Origin: a virus
Direction: 5' to 3' (one strand)
Virus record (IMG/VR): IMGVR_UViG_3300010430_000020
Location: 1-64,000 of that record
DNA length: 64,000 bases
Shown here: piece after piece, positions 1 through 48,534 of the stretch
How positions within the stretch are numbered: position 1 is the stretch's first letter
How the letters are laid out: each line of letters starts with the position of its first letter
Position numbers and translations under genes: made by a program
Notes under the pieces: generated by a model
Seen by the model: only the letters and a program-made list of their open reading frames with translations
What the model was told of the DNA's origin: nothing
Databases searched by the model: none

Positions 1-58
1 CGACCTGATCCCGGACCTGAACCCAGACCTGACTCCTGACCTGATTCGCGACTACCAT
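1..58 (-). CDS. Array mini-ORF h, N-terminal part (cut by window edge)
   Basis: Starts at 58 in the ATGGTAG junction shared with the stop of the preceding unit. The visible 19 codons begin MVVANQV and continue with QV-type repeats like those of the units at 228-792. The rest lies outside the window. Function unknown. Confidence 0.5.
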   Translation of the reverse strand, partial: MVVANQVRSQVWVQVRDQV

Positions 59-234
59 TTGTAATATCTCATACAGGTTAAGTTCAGATTCCGAAAATCA
101 TTTTCTCGTTGCCGCCGCCAAATCACCACTTGAACATTTTGCTCAACAGCGAAATCTGGATTGATCAGGCGGCCCACATCTTTAAGCCAAAGATCGTTTC
201 GAATACTATTAAGTATATGATACAAATTCACCAT
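52..234 (-). CDS. Array mini-ORF g, 60 aa
   Basis: Sixty residues beginning MVNLYHIL and ending RYYKW, overlapping its neighbours by 7 bases at both ends. It lacks the QV repeats. Its N-terminus ([10 protein letters not shown]) resembles that of the first unit (MINLYKI) and, more loosely, the second (NLMYHFAHTLR), which suggests an ancestral non-repetitive form of the family. Start preceded by AGGTACTACAA. No known domain recognised. Confidence 0.55.
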   Translation of the reverse strand: MVNLYHILNSIRNDLWLKDVGRLINPDFAVEQNVQVVIWRRQRENDFRNLNLTCMRYYKW

Positions 235-416
235 TTGTAGTACCTTAACACGGTATCCTGGATTTGATCAATGAATCGATCCCCTAGCAGATCATCGTCA
301 ACTCGATCCCAAGTTTGACCCTTGACTTGAGATCGGACTCGAATACCGACTTGAGATCGGAGTTGAACACCGGCTCGAATACCGACTTGATCAAAGACTT
401 CCCCAAAATTCACCAT
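228..416 (-). CDS. Array mini-ORF f, 62 aa, QV repeats
   Basis: Starts [11 protein letters not shown] at 416, inside a longer open frame, and ends RYYKW. The middle has repeated RSQV-type tetrapeptides; the C-terminal third is non-repetitive and acidic ([12 protein letters not shown]). The start is chosen because it lies in the conserved junction behind an AGGTACTATCA element. Function unknown. Confidence 0.5.
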
Positions 417-595
417 TGATAGTACCTGTTCTGACCATTCTCGACCTGATCCCTGATCTGATGCCAGACCCAAACCCCGACTTGACTCCTGACCTGAACC
501 CAGACCTGACTCCTGATCCGAAAACAGACCTGACTCCTGACCTGAACCCAGACCTGACCCCTAACCTGATCCTCGACTTGGTGAAAATCTACCAT
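410..595 (-). CDS. Array mini-ORF e, 61 aa, QV repeats
   Basis: Begins [11 protein letters not shown] and ends RYYQW. Almost the whole body is built of alternating RSQV, WVQV and similar units from a degenerate 9 to 12-base repeat. The opposite strand is also open here because the repeat lacks stops in several frames; that is a by-product. Closest relative in the array is the unit at 589-792, which shares the MVDFxQVEDQV start. Confidence 0.5.
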
Positions 596-792
596 TCGTA
601 ATACCTACTCTGAGTATCCGCGACCCGATCCCTGACCTGATCCCTGAATTGATTCCAGACCTGATCCCTGACCTGATCCTTGAACTGAAGCATGTTCCAG
701 ACCTGACTCCTGACCAGATTCCAGACCTGATCCCTGACCTGAATCCTGACCTGATGCTCGACCTGATCCTCGACTTGGCGAAAATCTACCAT
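589..792 (-). CDS. Array mini-ORF d, 67 aa, QV repeats
   Basis: Begins [11 protein letters not shown] at 792 in the junction and ends RYYEW. Repeats of the RDQVWN type fill the middle, giving a strongly periodic, probably amphipathic chain. A longer open frame reaches back to 861, but the junction start has the conserved ribosome site. Function unknown. Confidence 0.5.
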
Positions 793-1007
793 TTGTAGTA
801 CCTCGCCACTGACCTGCAGGTACCGACACAGGCGGTCGCTGAGCGTGCGAGTTTCAGCCAATCGGAACGATCTAAATTATTCACAATCCATTTCTGCATT
901 TTGTTTCGTATTTGTTTGAATAGAAACAGTGCATGGTCCGCCATCCAATACGATCCATAACATAAATACCGCCGAAAAATAGGGGGTTTATATTTTTTCA
1001 TCACCAT
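786..1007 (-). CDS. Array mini-ORF c, 73 aa
   Basis: Begins MVMKKYKPP and ends VARYYKW. It is the longest unit, basic, with no QV repeats and two cysteines near the C-terminus (ACVGTC). Start and stop both lie in conserved junctions. No domain recognised. Confidence 0.5.
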   Translation of the reverse strand: MVMKKYKPPIFRRYLCYGSYWMADHALFLFKQIRNKMQKWIVNNLDRSDWLKLARSATACVGTCRSVARYYKW

Positions 1008-1165
1008 TTGTAATACCTTAACTCGGTATTCAACTGTCGCGCTTGGAGGACGACACTATTTAATCCTGTCTCAATTTCAAGCTTTACATCTAGAGTTCGT
1101 CCTAATACTTCCTCACTACGTAAAGTATGAGCAAAATGATACATGAGATTACCCAATTTCACCAT
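1001..1165 (-). CDS. Array mini-ORF b, 54 aa
   Basis: ATG at 1165, ends LRYYKW. It begins MVKLGNLMYHF and contains a predicted helix rich in L, E and V. The segment NLMYHFAHTLRSE can be aligned with [12 protein letters not shown] of the unit at 52-234, so the non-repetitive units appear homologous. The 7-base overlap at both ends suggests translational coupling. Confidence 0.5.
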   Translation of the reverse strand: MVKLGNLMYHFAHTLRSEEVLGRTLDVKLEIETGLNSVVLQARQLNTELRYYKW

Positions 1166-1296
1166 TTGTAGTACCTGTTCAAATTATGCCATGTGTAAGT
1201 CTTAGCATCAATGCTCGGAGCTTGATCTGTTATTTGCCAGACGCAACTCACGATTTGACCTATCAAATGAAACCTAATTTTGTACAGATTTATCAT
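1159..1296 (-). CDS. Array mini-ORF a, 45 aa, first of the array
   Basis: ATG at 1296, two bases after the sulfotransferase-like stop at 1298, so the array is probably co-transcribed with that gene. Begins MINLYKI, like the unit at 52-234, and ends NRYYKW followed by TGA in the first ATGGTGA junction. It is the only unit whose own start is not in a junction, which marks it as the head of the array. Confidence 0.5.
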   Translation of the reverse strand: MINLYKIRFHLIGQIVSCVWQITDQAPSIDAKTYTWHNLNRYYKW

Positions 1297-1297
1297 A

Positions 1298-1855
1298 TCA
1301 AAATTTTACCGTTGAGGGCCTGAACCATTCTTTAGGCAACGGAGCGCCGACGATCTCTTCCAGCGCCTGGATATCGATGGTCTTACCGAATTTCCATACC
1401 GGCCAACCATACAGGATATGCAAATCTCTTATACGCTCCTGTCCCCTCCTGGCAAGCTCGAATGCATCACCACGCCCGAACCTATTAGCTATGGACTTGC
1501 CGTTAGCAACATGGTCTCGGGAGACCAGAAGGGGCTCCACCTCAGCTGTAACTAGCGTCTCGGGCTCCCAGAGCAGGTGCCACGCGATTTTAACAACGCA
1601 GCGGTCATACCCCTTGGCAGATGCTTCTACCCTGTACTCATCGAAATATGAGCGTCTGAGGGCCAATTCATCATCAGTTGGTCGCTCGGTCGGTTCATGC
1701 CAAAGAGACGACTTGTATAAACAAGCCGCCTTCTGATCTTCAAAAAACCTATCGTCGTTTTTTCTATTGTAGAATCCGTTCTTAGTCAGTATACCCGCAG
1801 TAGCAGATGTGCCGCCGCCGGGCATACCTAGAACGAATGTTAGGCGGGCAGTCAT
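1298..1855 (-). CDS. Sulfotransferase-like P-loop protein
   Basis: 185 residues. The N-terminus VLGMPGGGTSATAG (residues about 8-21) is the P-loop-like 5'-phosphosulfate binding loop of sulfotransferases (GxxxxGTS type) and follows a hydrophobic first strand. A central VEPLLVSRDH could be the strand carrying the 3'-phosphate-binding Arg/Ser; this is family knowledge, not verified. Starts one base after the upstream stop and is followed at once by the mini-ORF array. If active it could sulfate a host or virion glycan. Alternative: another P-loop kinase-like enzyme. Confidence 0.5.
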   Translation of the reverse strand: MTARLTFVLGMPGGGTSATAGILTKNGFYNRKNDDRFFEDQKAACLYKSSLWHEPTERPTDDELALRRSYFDEYRVEASAKGYDRCVVKIAWHLLWEPETLVTAEVEPLLVSRDHVANGKSIANRFGRGDAFELARRGQERIRDLHILYGWPVWKFGKTIDIQALEEIVGAPLPKEWFRPSTVKF

Positions 1856-16305: not shown

Positions 16306-16531
16306 TTTGTAAAGTTTCCCTTGCTAATTTTCTGAGACGCTTTGCCCTGCGCCCATGAAGTTTTCTTGTGTGAATGCACGGATAATTACGCTCATCAGCT
16401 TCCATTATAGAACGTGAATAGCCGGGCCACATCATTGCATACTGAAGATCGATATTTGACCAATGGTGATACCTCAGATTCTTTAATCTGTAAAAATGCT
16501 CATCTCTGTAAGTGATACTGAGATCAAACAT
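16298..16531 (-). CDS. Basic hypothetical protein, 77 aa
   Basis: Start at 16531 overlaps the glycosyltransferase stop (ATGTTTGA). The C-terminus is highly basic (KLHGRRAKRLRKLARE). Contains YRDEHFYRLKNLRYHHW near the start. No domain recognised. Confidence 0.6.
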   Translation of the reverse strand: MFDLSITYRDEHFYRLKNLRYHHWSNIDLQYAMMWPGYSRSIMEADERNYPCIHTRKLHGRRAKRLRKLARETLQNV

Positions 16532-44185: not shown

Positions 44186-47100
44186 CTAGGCTCCAGGTTT
44201 TTTGACCACTACGATAGGCTTGTCACCAACAGGCTCTGGTTCTGGCAAATCAGCCTCGACCACAGTCTCTACAGTTGGTTTTACCTTATCGATGGCTTTC
44301 TCGACAAGCTTGACTGGATCGAGACCCTTGGCCTTCACAGCTTCCACCACATCGGCTTCTACTGCCATAACGATATCGGCCTCGCCTGCTGGTGTCTCAA
44401 CCACTTCCAGCTTGGCCTCGGGAAGAATGTCTTCACTGGTATCCGTTAGGACCAGCTTATCACCTTCTTTCTCTAGCTCGACCAGCTGCGGTAAGACTTC
44501 CGGCATTTCTACCGTAACATCATCAACCACAACCTTTTCGAGAGGTGCTGTTACCGTTGCTTCCGGTAGCACTGGAACCGAGTCATTCGTCTCTAGGGCG
44601 GCCTTGACGACCTCCTCCAGGACAACACCCTTATCTTCCAATTCTGCCTTCACAGCAGGCTCTACAGCCAGCACAACGTCACTCATACCCTCATCCGTCT
44701 TGACCGGAATCAGCTCGACCTCATCGGCCTTCACTTCAACCGTGGCGTCTTCCAGGATAATGGCAGGGGCATCAGATGATGGCTTCTCATCTAGCTTAAC
44801 TTCTAGAAGCTGAGGAGCTTCCTCCGCCGCCAGGGTCACTTCGACCGTTGGTTTATCAGATGTCTCATCGATCAATAGAGTAGCTGGCTCCTTAGCGATT
44901 TCGTCTAGCTTTTCTACGACCTCCTCGACCTCCATAGCTTCAGCCATGTCTTCATCCTTGACTGTGGTGCTATCTGTTGGGACAACTTCCACATCAGCGA
45001 TGTTAACCGCCTTTTCTAAGACTTCGACTACATCTTCAACCGCAGCTTCTACTTCCTTATCAACCGCCACAATCAAGTCTGGCTGGCCTTCAGGAGTAAC
45101 AACTGCCACCAGCTCGGCATCCTCTGGAATGTCTTCTTTGACATCCACAAGATCGACACTGACGATTTCATTATTTGCAGGATCAGGATCGAGGACCGCT
45201 TCCACCACTTGAGGTAGGACTTCAGGAGTCGTGACCTCAACAGTATCCTTGGTCTCATCCATCTTATCAACCATTACCGTTACCGGCTCAACCTCTTCCT
45301 CTACTGCAGGAACTTCAGGGAGGGCATCATTGGTTTCGAGAGCGTCTTTTACAACTTCCTCGATGACCACACCTTCCGTCTCAAGCGCCTCTTTCTCAAT
45401 TGGGTCAATTGCGATAACAACGTCTGCCTTATCCTCATCGGTTTTGATGACCAGCAATTCCTTATTGTCTCCCACCTCAATTGTGGCATCCTCTACGACA
45501 ATAGATGGAATTTCCTTATTTGCCGGATTATCATCTAGCTTAACCGCTACCACCTGTGGGGACTCTTCTGCCGCCAGGGTCACTTCGACCGTTGGCTTAT
45601 CTGAATCCTTGTCCACAACAATAGTTGCAGGCTCCTTGGCGATTTCGTCTAGCTTTTCTACGACTGCCTCGACCTTAGAAGCTTCTTCAACCTTGGCTTC
45701 ATCGAGTACAGGGGCATCTACCAGGACATCTGCCTGATTGATTGCCTTCTCAACGACTTCGGCCAAATCTTTGACACCATCCTTTTTAAGCTCCTCGACA
45801 ACCTCTGGTTTGGCCACGACAACCATGTCTGGCTGGCCATCAGGGGTTACCACAGGCATCAACGCGCCATCAGCGGGGATATCCTCTGCAACAGGCTTTA
45901 ACTCCACTGCAGGCTCTTCCACGACGATTTCAGGGGCATCCTTTAGAACGACTTCCATAATAGGCTCAACGACATCTGGTAGAGTCATCTCAACCGTTGG
46001 TTTTTCGTCATCCGTTTTATCCACCAGGACTGTTACATCCTCGGGATGGATTTCGATTTCTTCCTTGGTCTCTTCATCGATAACAACCTTGGGCTCATCA
46101 ACCAGCTCAGGGGCATCAACGATTTCCTTGGCAACCTCTAGAAGATCAGTCTTGGCCTTTTCCAGGACTTCAACGACTTCTGGTGCTGCTGCGACCACAA
46201 CGTCTGATTTGCCTTCTTCAGTTTTGACCACCACCAGCTCGGCATCGTCTGACACCTCTACCATAGCATCCTCAACCTTTAGAGGAGGCATATCAGTTAC
46301 GGCATCTTTGTTCTCTTCATCAATCTTCAATTCGACAACAGGAACATCCTCTACGAGGTCTTTCTTGACTTCGAGAGTTTCTTTCTTGTCATCTTCTTTA
46401 TTAACGAGAACAATATCAGCCTTTTTCTCTTCGACTTCAGCAACTACTTCGGCCTTATCGGCTTCTTCTAGTTTGACTTCATCGACTGGCTCGGATGTTT
46501 TGACTTCTTCAACCACCTCTGCGGCGGCACTCTCTACAACACCCTTGACATCAATATCTTTGGCTTCAAGTTCGTCCTTCAGGACAGGATCAACAGCCAC
46601 GACCACATCTGGCTTGCCTTCCGGCATGACCACTGGTAGCAGTACTGCATCTTCCTTGATATCCTCAACCGTATCTTCAAGCTTTACTGCAGGAATATCA
46701 GCCTTTGTGGGCTTGTCATCCTTTTTCAATTCAACAACAGAAGGAATTTCCTTTGGTAGAGTCACCTCTACTGTGGGCTTATCGGCTTTTTCCTTATCAA
46801 CCAAGACAGTTTTCTTTTCTTCAGCCTTCTCGGTCTTTTCAGGGAGTTTGGGTGCGGCATCCAGAGCGTCAACGACTTCTTTAACTGTGTCAACAATATC
46901 TACTTTTGCCTCATCCAGGAGCTTCTTATCATCTTCCTTCAGCGCAACGACCACATCTGCTTTCCCAGCTTCCGTTTTCACGGGCAGGAGAACCACATCA
47001 TCTGAAACCTCGATGGTGGCATCTTTCAGCTCAACATCGATCTTGGAGTCGCCTTTTTTATCGACCTTGGCTTCAATGATCTGAGGCTTATTGTCGGGAG

Positions 47101-47983
47101 CGCTTACTTCAACAGTGACTTCTTTCTTGTCAGCCTTTTTCTCGGCTTTCTTTTCAGCAATCTCTGCTTTCTTCTCTTCTTTCTTTTCGGCTTTCTCTTC
47201 TTTCTCTAGAAGTTTCTCTTCGATCTTCTTGGACTTTTCCGCGATCTTTTCTTCGACCTTGGCCAGTTTATCCTCAATCTTGAGATCGGCTTCTTTGAGT
47301 TTTTTGACGTGCTCCTTGGCCGCTTCTTTTTTGTGGCCTAGAGTTTTCATCAGAGCTTCTGTTTCTGCCTCATCGATCTTTTCTGGATCATCGAGGTCCA
47401 TAACACCAACTGGCTTGCCAGCTGAGTTATACATATAGCGACGGAAGCCCATACGCTGCTTACGCAACTTGGCGCGGCCACCACTATCAAACTTGACCTT
47501 ACCAGAATCCGGCAGAACCTTAAACAGCTCATCTTCTTTGACTGTCAGTGCATCCTTGACTTCAACAACGCCACTTTCCAGCATTGGTTCGCCAGCTTTG
47601 CGAAGCTTGTAGGTTACATACAACACGCCACCATCAAAAACAGAACCCTCTAATCTCAATGTAGATGAGATTGGGAACTTAACATAGACGTTGCCATCGG
47701 CGATTCCCTTATGGAAATACACATCATCTGCTTCTGCTGGCTCTTTTGTTTCGGTAGCTTTAATTACTAGCAGGCCGCCTTCATGAGAGGCACCTACATC
47801 GGTCACATTGTATCCGACCATTGATACCTGAACAACAAATGTTTCGGCGTCGGTTTGTACAATATTGTAAGGGGGATAGTCTTCTGAAAAGTATTCTGAA
47901 CCTAGTCCGTCCACCACTTTGAATAGGTGATCGAATCCTACGCCCAGTTTCTTTAGAAACTCGTAGCGATTGTCTACAGACAT
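44186..47983 (-). CDS. Hsp20-domain protein with about eight acidic valine-rich repeats
   Basis: 1265 residues from the ATG at 47983 (GGAGACCTCAT ahead); the longer frame to 48082 runs into the hairpin. Residues 1-130 are an alpha-crystallin/Hsp20 domain (YPPYNIVQTDAETFVVQVSM, FHKGIADGNVYVKFP). Residues about 205-290 are an E/K coiled coil. Residues about 290-1265 hold eight repeats of about 110-135 residues, alternating in type: odd copies contain LLPVKTEAGKADVVVA-like segments, even copies VVTPEGQPDVVV-like ones. Repeats are preceded by DKPTVEVTL. No cysteines in the repeats. Probably a large extended or virion-associated chaperone; function unknown. Confidence 0.9.
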   Translation of the reverse strand: MSVDNRYEFLKKLGVGFDHLFKVVDGLGSEYFSEDYPPYNIVQTDAETFVVQVSMVGYNVTDVGASHEGGLLVIKATETKEPAEADDVYFHKGIADGNVYVKFPISSTLRLEGSVFDGGVLYVTYKLRKAGEPMLESGVVEVKDALTVKEDELFKVLPDSGKVKFDSGGRAKLRKQRMGFRRYMYNSAGKPVGVMDLDDPEKIDEAETEALMKTLGHKKEAAKEHVKKLKEADLKIEDKLAKVEEKIAEKSKKIEEKLLEKEEKAEKKEEKKAEIAEKKAEKKADKKEVTVEVSAPDNKPQIIEAKVDKKGDSKIDVELKDATIEVSDDVVLLPVKTEAGKADVVVALKEDDKKLLDEAKVDIVDTVKEVVDALDAAPKLPEKTEKAEEKKTVLVDKEKADKPTVEVTLPKEIPSVVELKKDDKPTKADIPAVKLEDTVEDIKEDAVLLPVVMPEGKPDVVVAVDPVLKDELEAKDIDVKGVVESAAAEVVEEVKTSEPVDEVKLEEADKAEVVAEVEEKKADIVLVNKEDDKKETLEVKKDLVEDVPVVELKIDEENKDAVTDMPPLKVEDAMVEVSDDAELVVVKTEEGKSDVVVAAAPEVVEVLEKAKTDLLEVAKEIVDAPELVDEPKVVIDEETKEEIEIHPEDVTVLVDKTDDEKPTVEMTLPDVVEPIMEVVLKDAPEIVVEEPAVELKPVAEDIPADGALMPVVTPDGQPDMVVVAKPEVVEELKKDGVKDLAEVVEKAINQADVLVDAPVLDEAKVEEASKVEAVVEKLDEIAKEPATIVVDKDSDKPTVEVTLAAEESPQVVAVKLDDNPANKEIPSIVVEDATIEVGDNKELLVIKTDEDKADVVIAIDPIEKEALETEGVVIEEVVKDALETNDALPEVPAVEEEVEPVTVMVDKMDETKDTVEVTTPEVLPQVVEAVLDPDPANNEIVSVDLVDVKEDIPEDAELVAVVTPEGQPDLIVAVDKEVEAAVEDVVEVLEKAVNIADVEVVPTDSTTVKDEDMAEAMEVEEVVEKLDEIAKEPATLLIDETSDKPTVEVTLAAEEAPQLLEVKLDEKPSSDAPAIILEDATVEVKADEVELIPVKTDEGMSDVVLAVEPAVKAELEDKGVVLEEVVKAALETNDSVPVLPEATVTAPLEKVVVDDVTVEMPEVLPQLVELEKEGDKLVLTDTSEDILPEAKLEVVETPAGEADIVMAVEADVVEAVKAKGLDPVKLVEKAIDKVKPTVETVVEADLPEPEPVGDKPIVVVKKPGA

Positions 47984-47996
47984 ATGAGGTCTCCTT

Positions 47997-48034
47997 TTTA
48001 CGCGCGTAAACGAGATGTGATGGTGTAAATTTAC
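47997..48034 (-). promoter_or_regulatory. Two palindromes in the leader of the Hsp20-repeat gene
   Basis: TTTACGCGCGTAAA (47997-48010, perfect 14 bases) lies just before the ribosome site, and GTAAATTTAC (48025-48034, perfect 10 bases) lies further upstream. They look like operator or RNA structures controlling this gene. Confidence 0.45.
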
Positions 48035-48047
48035 CATATATTTAGTA

Positions 48048-48069
48048 GGGGGTGGATTTCTCCACCCCC
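48048..48069 (-). terminator. Strong hairpin after the small Hsp20 gene
   Basis: GGGGGTGGA-TTTC-TCCACCCCC on the plus strand, a 9-base-pair stem. It follows the stop at 48079; on the minus strand it lacks a clear T-run, so termination may be partial. Confidence 0.55.
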
Positions 48070-48078
48070 GGTCATGCG

Positions 48079-48534
48079 TCACCGCTCCTCTTGCAGGAGT
48101 AATTTTTCATCATTGACATCGGTATCTGCCTCAAGATGTTTACCTATTGGTATCTGTCTTGGTTTTTTATGCTCGGGTATCTCTCTATCGAGCAAAATTT
48201 TCAATATTCCATCCTCTAAAGATACACCTATTATCTTCACATCCGGCGACAGGACAAATTGTCTCCTAAAAGAGCGCATTCCTATGCCTTTGTGCATATA
48301 TTGCTCGTTGTTCTCTGGATTATCCTTTTTACCGGATATCTTGAGTACATCCTCAGCAAATTCAACTGATAGATCAGACTCCTTGAAACCGGCGACCGCC
48401 AGCTCTAGTAATGTCTGATGTCCATCAAGTTTTAATATGTTGTATGGTGGGTAATTGGACTGGTTCGTGATGTTCTCGCGGTTCATTTCCGCAAATAGGC
48501 GATCTAATCCAACACTGTATGGTGTGTGCATCAT
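48079..48534 (-). CDS. Hsp20-type small heat-shock protein
   Basis: About 151 residues from 48534 (strong AAGGAGGAAGAA; ATG ATG). YPPYNILKLDGHQTLLELAVAG, SDLSVEFAEDVLKISGKK, YMHKGIGMRSFRRQFVLSPD match the alpha-crystallin domain and are closely similar to the N-terminus of the fusion protein downstream, so the two are paralogs. The frame extends to 48615 with an ATGA overlap, but that reading lies across the late promoter. Confidence 0.85.
   Translation of the reverse strand: MMHTPYSVGLDRLFAEMNRENITNQSNYPPYNILKLDGHQTLLELAVAGFKESDLSVEFAEDVLKISGKKDNPENNEQYMHKGIGMRSFRRQFVLSPDVKIIGVSLEDGILKILLDREIPEHKKPRQIPIGKHLEADTDVNDEKLLLQEER

Follow-up and report, generated by a model that had tools for sequence, protein, structure and literature searches.

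Overlapping VxxQ-repeat mini-genes in a T4-like phage, one case of a widespread, apparently undescribed gene arrangement linked to DUF6745

We identified, at the start of a 64,000-base stretch of viral DNA (the window), an array of overlapping mini-open reading frames (mini-ORFs) that exemplifies a phage gene arrangement both widespread and apparently undescribed. We consider it probable, with moderate confidence, that this polycistronic array specifies coupled, helical mini-proteins built of Val-x-x-Gln (VxxQ) repeats, so that a repeat arm of the type found in DUF6745 proteins would be made as separate helices that present a variable binding or assembly surface. A broader proposal, which we offer more tentatively, is that the helical arm of a core protein (DUF6745) has moved into a recombination-expandable chain of coupled mini-genes, whose diversifying, interchangeable helices would dock in trans, and that such chains form an unnamed class of phage system.

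Located on the minus strand and read from 1296 to 52, the array contains seven mini-ORFs of 45, 54, 73, 67, 61, 62, and 60 aa, all of which end in RYYKW, RYYEW, or RYYQW. These are units 1 (1159..1296; MINLYK...NRYYKW), 2 (1001..1165; RYYKW), 3 (786..1007; RYYKW), 4 (589..792; RYYEW), 5 (410..595; RYYQW), 6 (228..416; RYYKW), and 7 (52..234; RYYKW), with units 4, 5, and 6 of the VxxQ repeat type; the start of unit 8 (1..58) is cut by the contig end. A preliminary description of this DNA had reported the seven ORFs, their lengths, their RYYxW ends, and their 7-base overlaps, all of which were present. It also had each ORF starting in an overlap, which proved correct for units 2 to 7, whose start codons lie in an ATGGTGA or ATGGTAG that overlaps the preceding stop by 7 nt, but not for unit 1, whose ATG is one base past the stop of a 185-aa ORF (1298..1855, minus strand) without a Pfam or PHROG match. 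Because of this one-base spacing, the array is probably part of the operon of the upstream ORF; a related-loci search with that ORF found nothing. Plus-strand ORFs rich in PDLIPDL at window positions 416 to 798 are the antisense of the 12-nt repeats described below and not separate genes. The density of GATC in the array (window positions 1 to 1300) is about threefold that in the rest of the window, as a by-product of the 12-nt repeat or possibly as something meaningful.

Since the window covers the first 64 kb of an IMG/VR record of 79,148 bases, its base 1 is a contig end, and the array runs off it. A second contig, L053 (IMGVR_UViG_3300010392_000316; 8,728 bases), matches window positions 1 to 127 with 100% identity over exactly 127 bases. 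Read outward, L053 continues with units 8 to 13, all RYYxW-ended, and then an 82-aa ORF without the tail that starts in the same type of junction. The leftward extension and unit count proposed in the preliminary description therefore yielded six more units and this capping ORF (ORF 14), for a total of 13 units in a row. From the exact length of the shared stretch, we infer that the two contigs are adjacent nodes of a k=127 assembly graph. L053 also encodes homologues of the T4 gp59 loader and of gp32, both of which are absent from the 79-kb record, as would be expected if L053 continued the same genome; in related contigs, homologues of the window genes at 8.9 to 11 kb lie a few kb from gp32. 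We treat the 13 units in succession as a single array belonging to one T4-like phage, while recognizing that there may be a strain mixture at the repeat. The genome is that of a T4-like phage, with genes for a gp43-type polymerase, UvsW, RNase H, and RecA-type and SMC-type proteins in the window in addition to the gp59 loader and gp32 in L053. Elsewhere in the window, a 1,298-aa ORF (44186-48082, minus strand) matches PHROG 432 (Hsp20 heat shock protein; E 7e-18) over residues 40 to 157 and has no Pfam hit.

Each junction holds a ribosome site, the codons of the RYYxW tail, the stop codon, and the next ATG. The seven junctions in the window (all minus strand) are 1/2 (1159..1176; AGGTACTACAAATGGTGA), 2/3 (1001..1018; AGGTATTACAAATGGTGA), 3/4 (786..803; AGGTACTACAAATGGTAG), 4/5 (589..606; AGGTATTACGAATGGTAG), 5/6 (410..427; AGGTACTATCAATGGTGA), 6/7 (228..245; AGGTACTACAAATGGTGA, the same as junction 1/2), and 7/8 (52..69; AGATATTACAAATGGTAG). 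At every junction, AGGT ends 7 nt before the ATG, and the overlap is 7 nt at all 13 junctions, from unit 1/2 through unit 13/ORF 14, with the next unit in another frame. With up to three mismatches allowed, the 18-base junction had five occurrences in the window (expected number from dinucleotide-preserving shuffles, 0.02) and none outside the array, while a 16-base degenerate pattern recovered all seven junctions on the 79,148-base contig plus one weak two-mismatch site at 16459. With all these elements packed into about 18 nt, the units would be read stepwise by termination-reinitiation. Coupling of this kind favours spacings of -4, -1, and -8 and falls with longer overlap (PMC12548453), so distal units might be poorly made with a 7-nt overlap, which is not a common spacing; nevertheless, -7 is less usual but within range, and as far as its layout can tell, the array fits termination-reinitiation coupling. 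Stop-codon recoding was considered and ruled out since both TGA and TAG serve as stops at the junctions and each following unit lies in a different frame. Programmed frameshifting at the overlaps, by which the array would be read as one long fusion protein, would account for each next unit lying in a new frame at a fixed offset, but we find it very unlikely and the least probable of the explanations considered: the window junction (TAC AAA TGG TGA) contains no visible slippery heptamer, every unit begins at an ATG of its own that is preceded by a suitably spaced AGGT, and the overlaps differ between arrays (4 to 17 nt), nearly all with an ATG that frameshifting does not need.

The RYYxW tail, present in 13 of 13 units as an array-specific conserved C terminus, is under purifying selection. 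At the 13 junctions, all variation in the RYY codons is silent (AGG/CGG/AGA and TAC/TAT), and the last five codons of the 13 units gave a pS of 0.57 and a pN of 0.04. About 4 of 27 single changes in the RYY codons are silent, so the chance that four distinct changes are all silent is about 0.0005 under equal rates and higher with transition bias. These results bear out the earlier claim of selection on the C-terminal peptide. The suggestion that relatives be searched for RYYxW arrays led to the continuation in L053 and to none elsewhere in the viral and genome contigs scanned: an exact-junction scan of IMG/VR found, besides L053, single chance-like sites only; two-junction pattern scans of viral and genome contigs gave no further RYYxW array; and 31 other records, most of them gp32 relatives, had at most one junction-like site each. 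Within the collections searched, RYYxW arrays are thus private to the window phage. An exact 18-base junction at positions 4023-4040 of L017, an unrelated contig, joins a 343-aa ORF that ends in RYYKW to an overlapping kinase-like gene and was judged a coincidence.

Seven of the 13 units (4, 5, 6, 8, 9, 10, and 13) consist of Val-x1-x2-Gln tetrads encoded by a 12-nt repeat, GTC NRG NNT CAR. The tandem tract of unit 4 occupies 622..769 (minus strand; in frame, GTC NRG NNT CAG), and unit 5 has a 12/24-nt tandem tract at 443..569 (minus strand). A VxxQ repeat was not clearly evident in units 1, 2, 3, 7, 11, and 12 (combined p = 0.06 in a period-4 test), which could be either decayed copies or foreign inserts. 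The N-terminal pattern of the array is MV[DNK][FL]. In the AlphaFold2 model of unit 9, a single helix spans residues 4-59 (mean pLDDT, 84; single-chain model with a pTM of 0.39), and the repeat units are predicted to be single long alpha-helices. Most units would then be VxxQ proteins of about 60 residues, each one long helix between an array-specific N terminus and tail. The repeat region of unit 9 weakly matched PHROG 5189 (66 positions; E 3e-5), and a related-loci search of genome contigs found no relative of this unit.

Searching with unit 9 also revealed other phage contigs with serially overlapping, similar mini-ORFs joined by different junctions. A scan of IMG/VR DNA for the 12-nt repeat gave at least 119 stretches, after which duplicate contigs were removed; because loci were fetched by this DNA pattern, a tract is guaranteed somewhere in each locus and codon counts are biased. 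Among the matches listed, there were at least 53 nonredundant chains of two or more overlapping repeat mini-ORFs on at least 38 other viral contigs; at least 26 of the listed chains had three or more units, and together they held at least 162 units with a median length of 63 aa. The tail differs from array to array (for example, RNNHADQ, KELR, YDEIS, DLENE, QVYG, DDIK, NDLRK, or HEIS), and overlap length is constant within nearly every listed array, mostly 4, 8, 11, 14, or 17 nt. An ATG for the next frame lay within -20 to +10 nt of the stop in 118 of 125 adjacent tract pairs in the listed arrays; at random positions, the same interval held an out-of-frame ATG ORF of at least 35 aa in 11% of cases, in a test not identical to that of the tract pairs. 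The window array belongs to this class, with consecutive VxxQ ORFs (units 4-6, 8-10, and 13), a constant overlap, and its own tail. RYYxW, which had been put forward as the defining feature of such arrays, does not serve as one, being limited to this array; the wider class is that of VxxQ repeats linked to DUF6745. Some contigs (L155, L231, L170, and L251) carry multiple distinct arrays, identical or related in type, that occupy a single strand or both. Another contig, L254 (IMGVR_UViG_3300010392_000122; same metagenome number as L053), ends inside the repeat tract of a fused DUF6745 gene; contig breaks seem to fall at such repeats, and metagenomes therefore probably yield too low a count of arrays. 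Units of other arrays gave weak repeat-region matches to the Pfam family DUF4816 (E 1e-4 to 6e-3, below cut-off).

The repeat consensus makes stops impossible in the other two forward frames, which read open, so long ORFs alone are weak proof of coding. In the VxxQ frame, the x1 codon (NRG) could be TAG. Among the array loci listed, TAG occurred at x1 once in 1,286 tetrads, whereas 86 (from position independence) to 115 (from the A:G ratio) were expected, and the single case was a unit's own stop. This depletion shows that the VxxQ frame is translated in array loci. Proline at the variable positions occurred once in 1,286 tetrads, which fits a helix, though the expected number is small. The same counts weigh against a nucleic acid device, in which the repeat DNA or RNA would act as a decoy, binding site, or recombination hotspot and the ORFs would be by-products of the 12-nt repeat. 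Such a device would be in keeping with the open state of the other two frames, with the threefold GATC enrichment in the window array, and with the encoding of valine by GTC in about 96% of tetrads, though the fetching pattern required GTC and CAR. However, the loss of TAG is explained by translation and not by a DNA role, starts, stops, and frame shifts are coordinated at 118 of the 125 listed junctions, the window tails vary silently, and six units of the window array are open without the repeat. We therefore consider a nucleic acid device improbable.

Units 8-9 align with units 4-5 as one block, with 77% DNA identity over 357 bases, which indicates a segmental duplication and supports recombinational turnover of units. 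Gain, loss, and shuffling of units would occur by recombination between 12-nt repeats and between junctions. The preliminary picture of a modular cassette that gains and loses units by recombination accordingly keeps its tandem tiny proteins and coupling geometry, to which the block duplication is added, but not its unrelated modules defined by RYYxW. Between close paralogues, most differences fall on the first two codon positions (17, 12, and 2 changes at positions 1, 2, and 3 between units 4 and 9), and dN/dS was 0.8 to 2.2 among units 4, 5, 8, and 9. This pattern suggests diversification, in which the two middle residues of each tetrad would change, though shuffling among nonequivalent repeats could mimic it. 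The most likely use of such helices would be as a variable binding or assembly surface aimed at host factors. A special case of this explanation is a putative counter-defence repertoire, each mini-protein binding a different host defence component while diversification tracks hosts. Diverging, multicopy paralogues in phages and the concentration of changes at amino acid-changing tetrad positions are what such a repertoire would produce, but PADLOC matches were weak only, and there are a fused-type DUF6745 gene in a Mycobacterium prophage and repeat-like stretches on bacterial plasmids, so the role may extend beyond lytic phages. We regard a counter-defence repertoire as possible but doubtful.

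The search with unit 9 reached DUF6745 proteins through an internal VxxQ tract. DUF6745 (PF20530) was assigned above cut-off in L129, L131, and L132, and among viral models, there was a match to the DUF6745 protein of Microcystis phage LMM01; a fold search of a DUF6745 model against the PDB gave nothing significant. The protein occurs in two forms. In the fused form, the VxxQ tract lies between an N-terminal part (approximately residues 1-83) and a C-terminal part; in the split form, DUF6745 is an uninterrupted protein of about 286 aa without repeats, in an intact frame beside arrays. Among the loci listed, stand-alone tracts were found in 0 of 32 nonredundant fused loci and in 12 of 13 split loci; their median distance was 142 nt, and 43 of 46 lay on the same strand. 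Since loci were fetched by the repeat, a tract is expected in split loci, and the informative points are the zero in fused loci, the closeness, and the shared strand. The sole split locus without a stand-alone tract, L135, is the annotated prophage prophiGD102-1, which was fetched another way. Seven other array records lacked DUF6745 in the locus fetched but encoded it elsewhere. A protein of about 105 to 125 aa with the motif GHSETGHxHV and no Pfam match above cut-off is a frequent third neighbour of DUF6745 in fused and split loci (L129, 4271-4588; L131, 3672-4022; L132, 1176-1526; L254, 873-1250, minus strand). Judged from gene content and order, the repeat section of DUF6745 is, in the split form, encoded as a chain of separate mini-proteins. 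In the course of evolution, the repeats may have left DUF6745 or entered it.

This relation also bears on whether the arrays are decaying debris of a repeat-rich DUF6745 gene broken by frameshifts and internal restarts. Debris would explain why units match the repeat region of DUF6745 proteins and why units of L130 end in QVYG, the sequence before the C-terminal domain in fused proteins. Against it, overlaps are constant within nearly every array, the N and C termini are conserved, DUF6745 beside arrays is an intact, repeat-free frame, and nonsense codons are depleted, so we give debris a still smaller chance than a nucleic acid device. Under the preferred reading of coupled helical mini-proteins, the separate helices would assemble with the DUF6745 core in trans or with each other where the core is absent, as in the known part of the window phage. 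The genome of this phage is incomplete, and the approximately 88 kb known of it yielded no DUF6745 (PF20530 is a domain of about 206 residues; the curated cut-off was applied to the 79-kb record), and tblastn of the DUF6745 core against the window, L009, and L081 gave no core, with matches only to the repeat region of the fused protein. Likewise, no DUF6745 was found in L163, a 102-kb contig with seven tracts that may be incomplete. Any DUF6745 partner in the window phage would be putative.

If this reading is true, the arrays are a new way of building viral proteins, in which a repeat region is turned into a series of related mini-proteins, each started independently, that can vary in number and surface through simple recombination. 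It would also link DUF6745 to a partner that is easily missed, its units being short, repetitive, and overlapping, with all three forward frames open. The arrays further provide a natural series of up to 13 start/stop overlaps, with spacings of 4, 7, 8, 11, 14, and 17 nt, for the study of coupled translation.

The preliminary description knew of no named system like this array, and we likewise found none: the open-licence PMC literature yielded no description of DUF6745, DUF4816, the repeat motif, or such overlapping arrays, and tblastn of the repeat against 50,697 phage records gave almost nothing, in a test limited by low-complexity filtering. As far as we found, translational coupling is well known, and a protein repeat region laid out as an array of coupled mini-genes is apparently new. 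Diversity-generating retroelements are similar in that variation in the arrays is concentrated at the first two positions of selected codons. Unlike such elements, the array phages have no reverse transcriptase that we could find: PF00078 was absent from 14 of 14 records (the window phage, L053, and 12 other array records, which may be incomplete) and present in three control genomes. Matches of array units to PHROG 5189 and DUF4816 are short, and neither family implies an array organization. DUF6745 proteins with internal VxxQ repeats (for example, that of L129; named relatives are prophiGD102-1 gp38 and a Microcystis phage LMM01 protein) have the repeat type in common with the arrays, but in the arrays the repeats form individual mini-ORFs, each with a start, a tail, and a coupling junction of its own. 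Termination-reinitiation coupling (reviewed in PMC12548453) follows the same principle of geometry, and many arrays use its enriched -4 and -8 spacings. The arrays differ from known coupling in that they also use spacings of -7, -11, -14, and -17 and chain up to 13 units by one repeated, double-coding junction.
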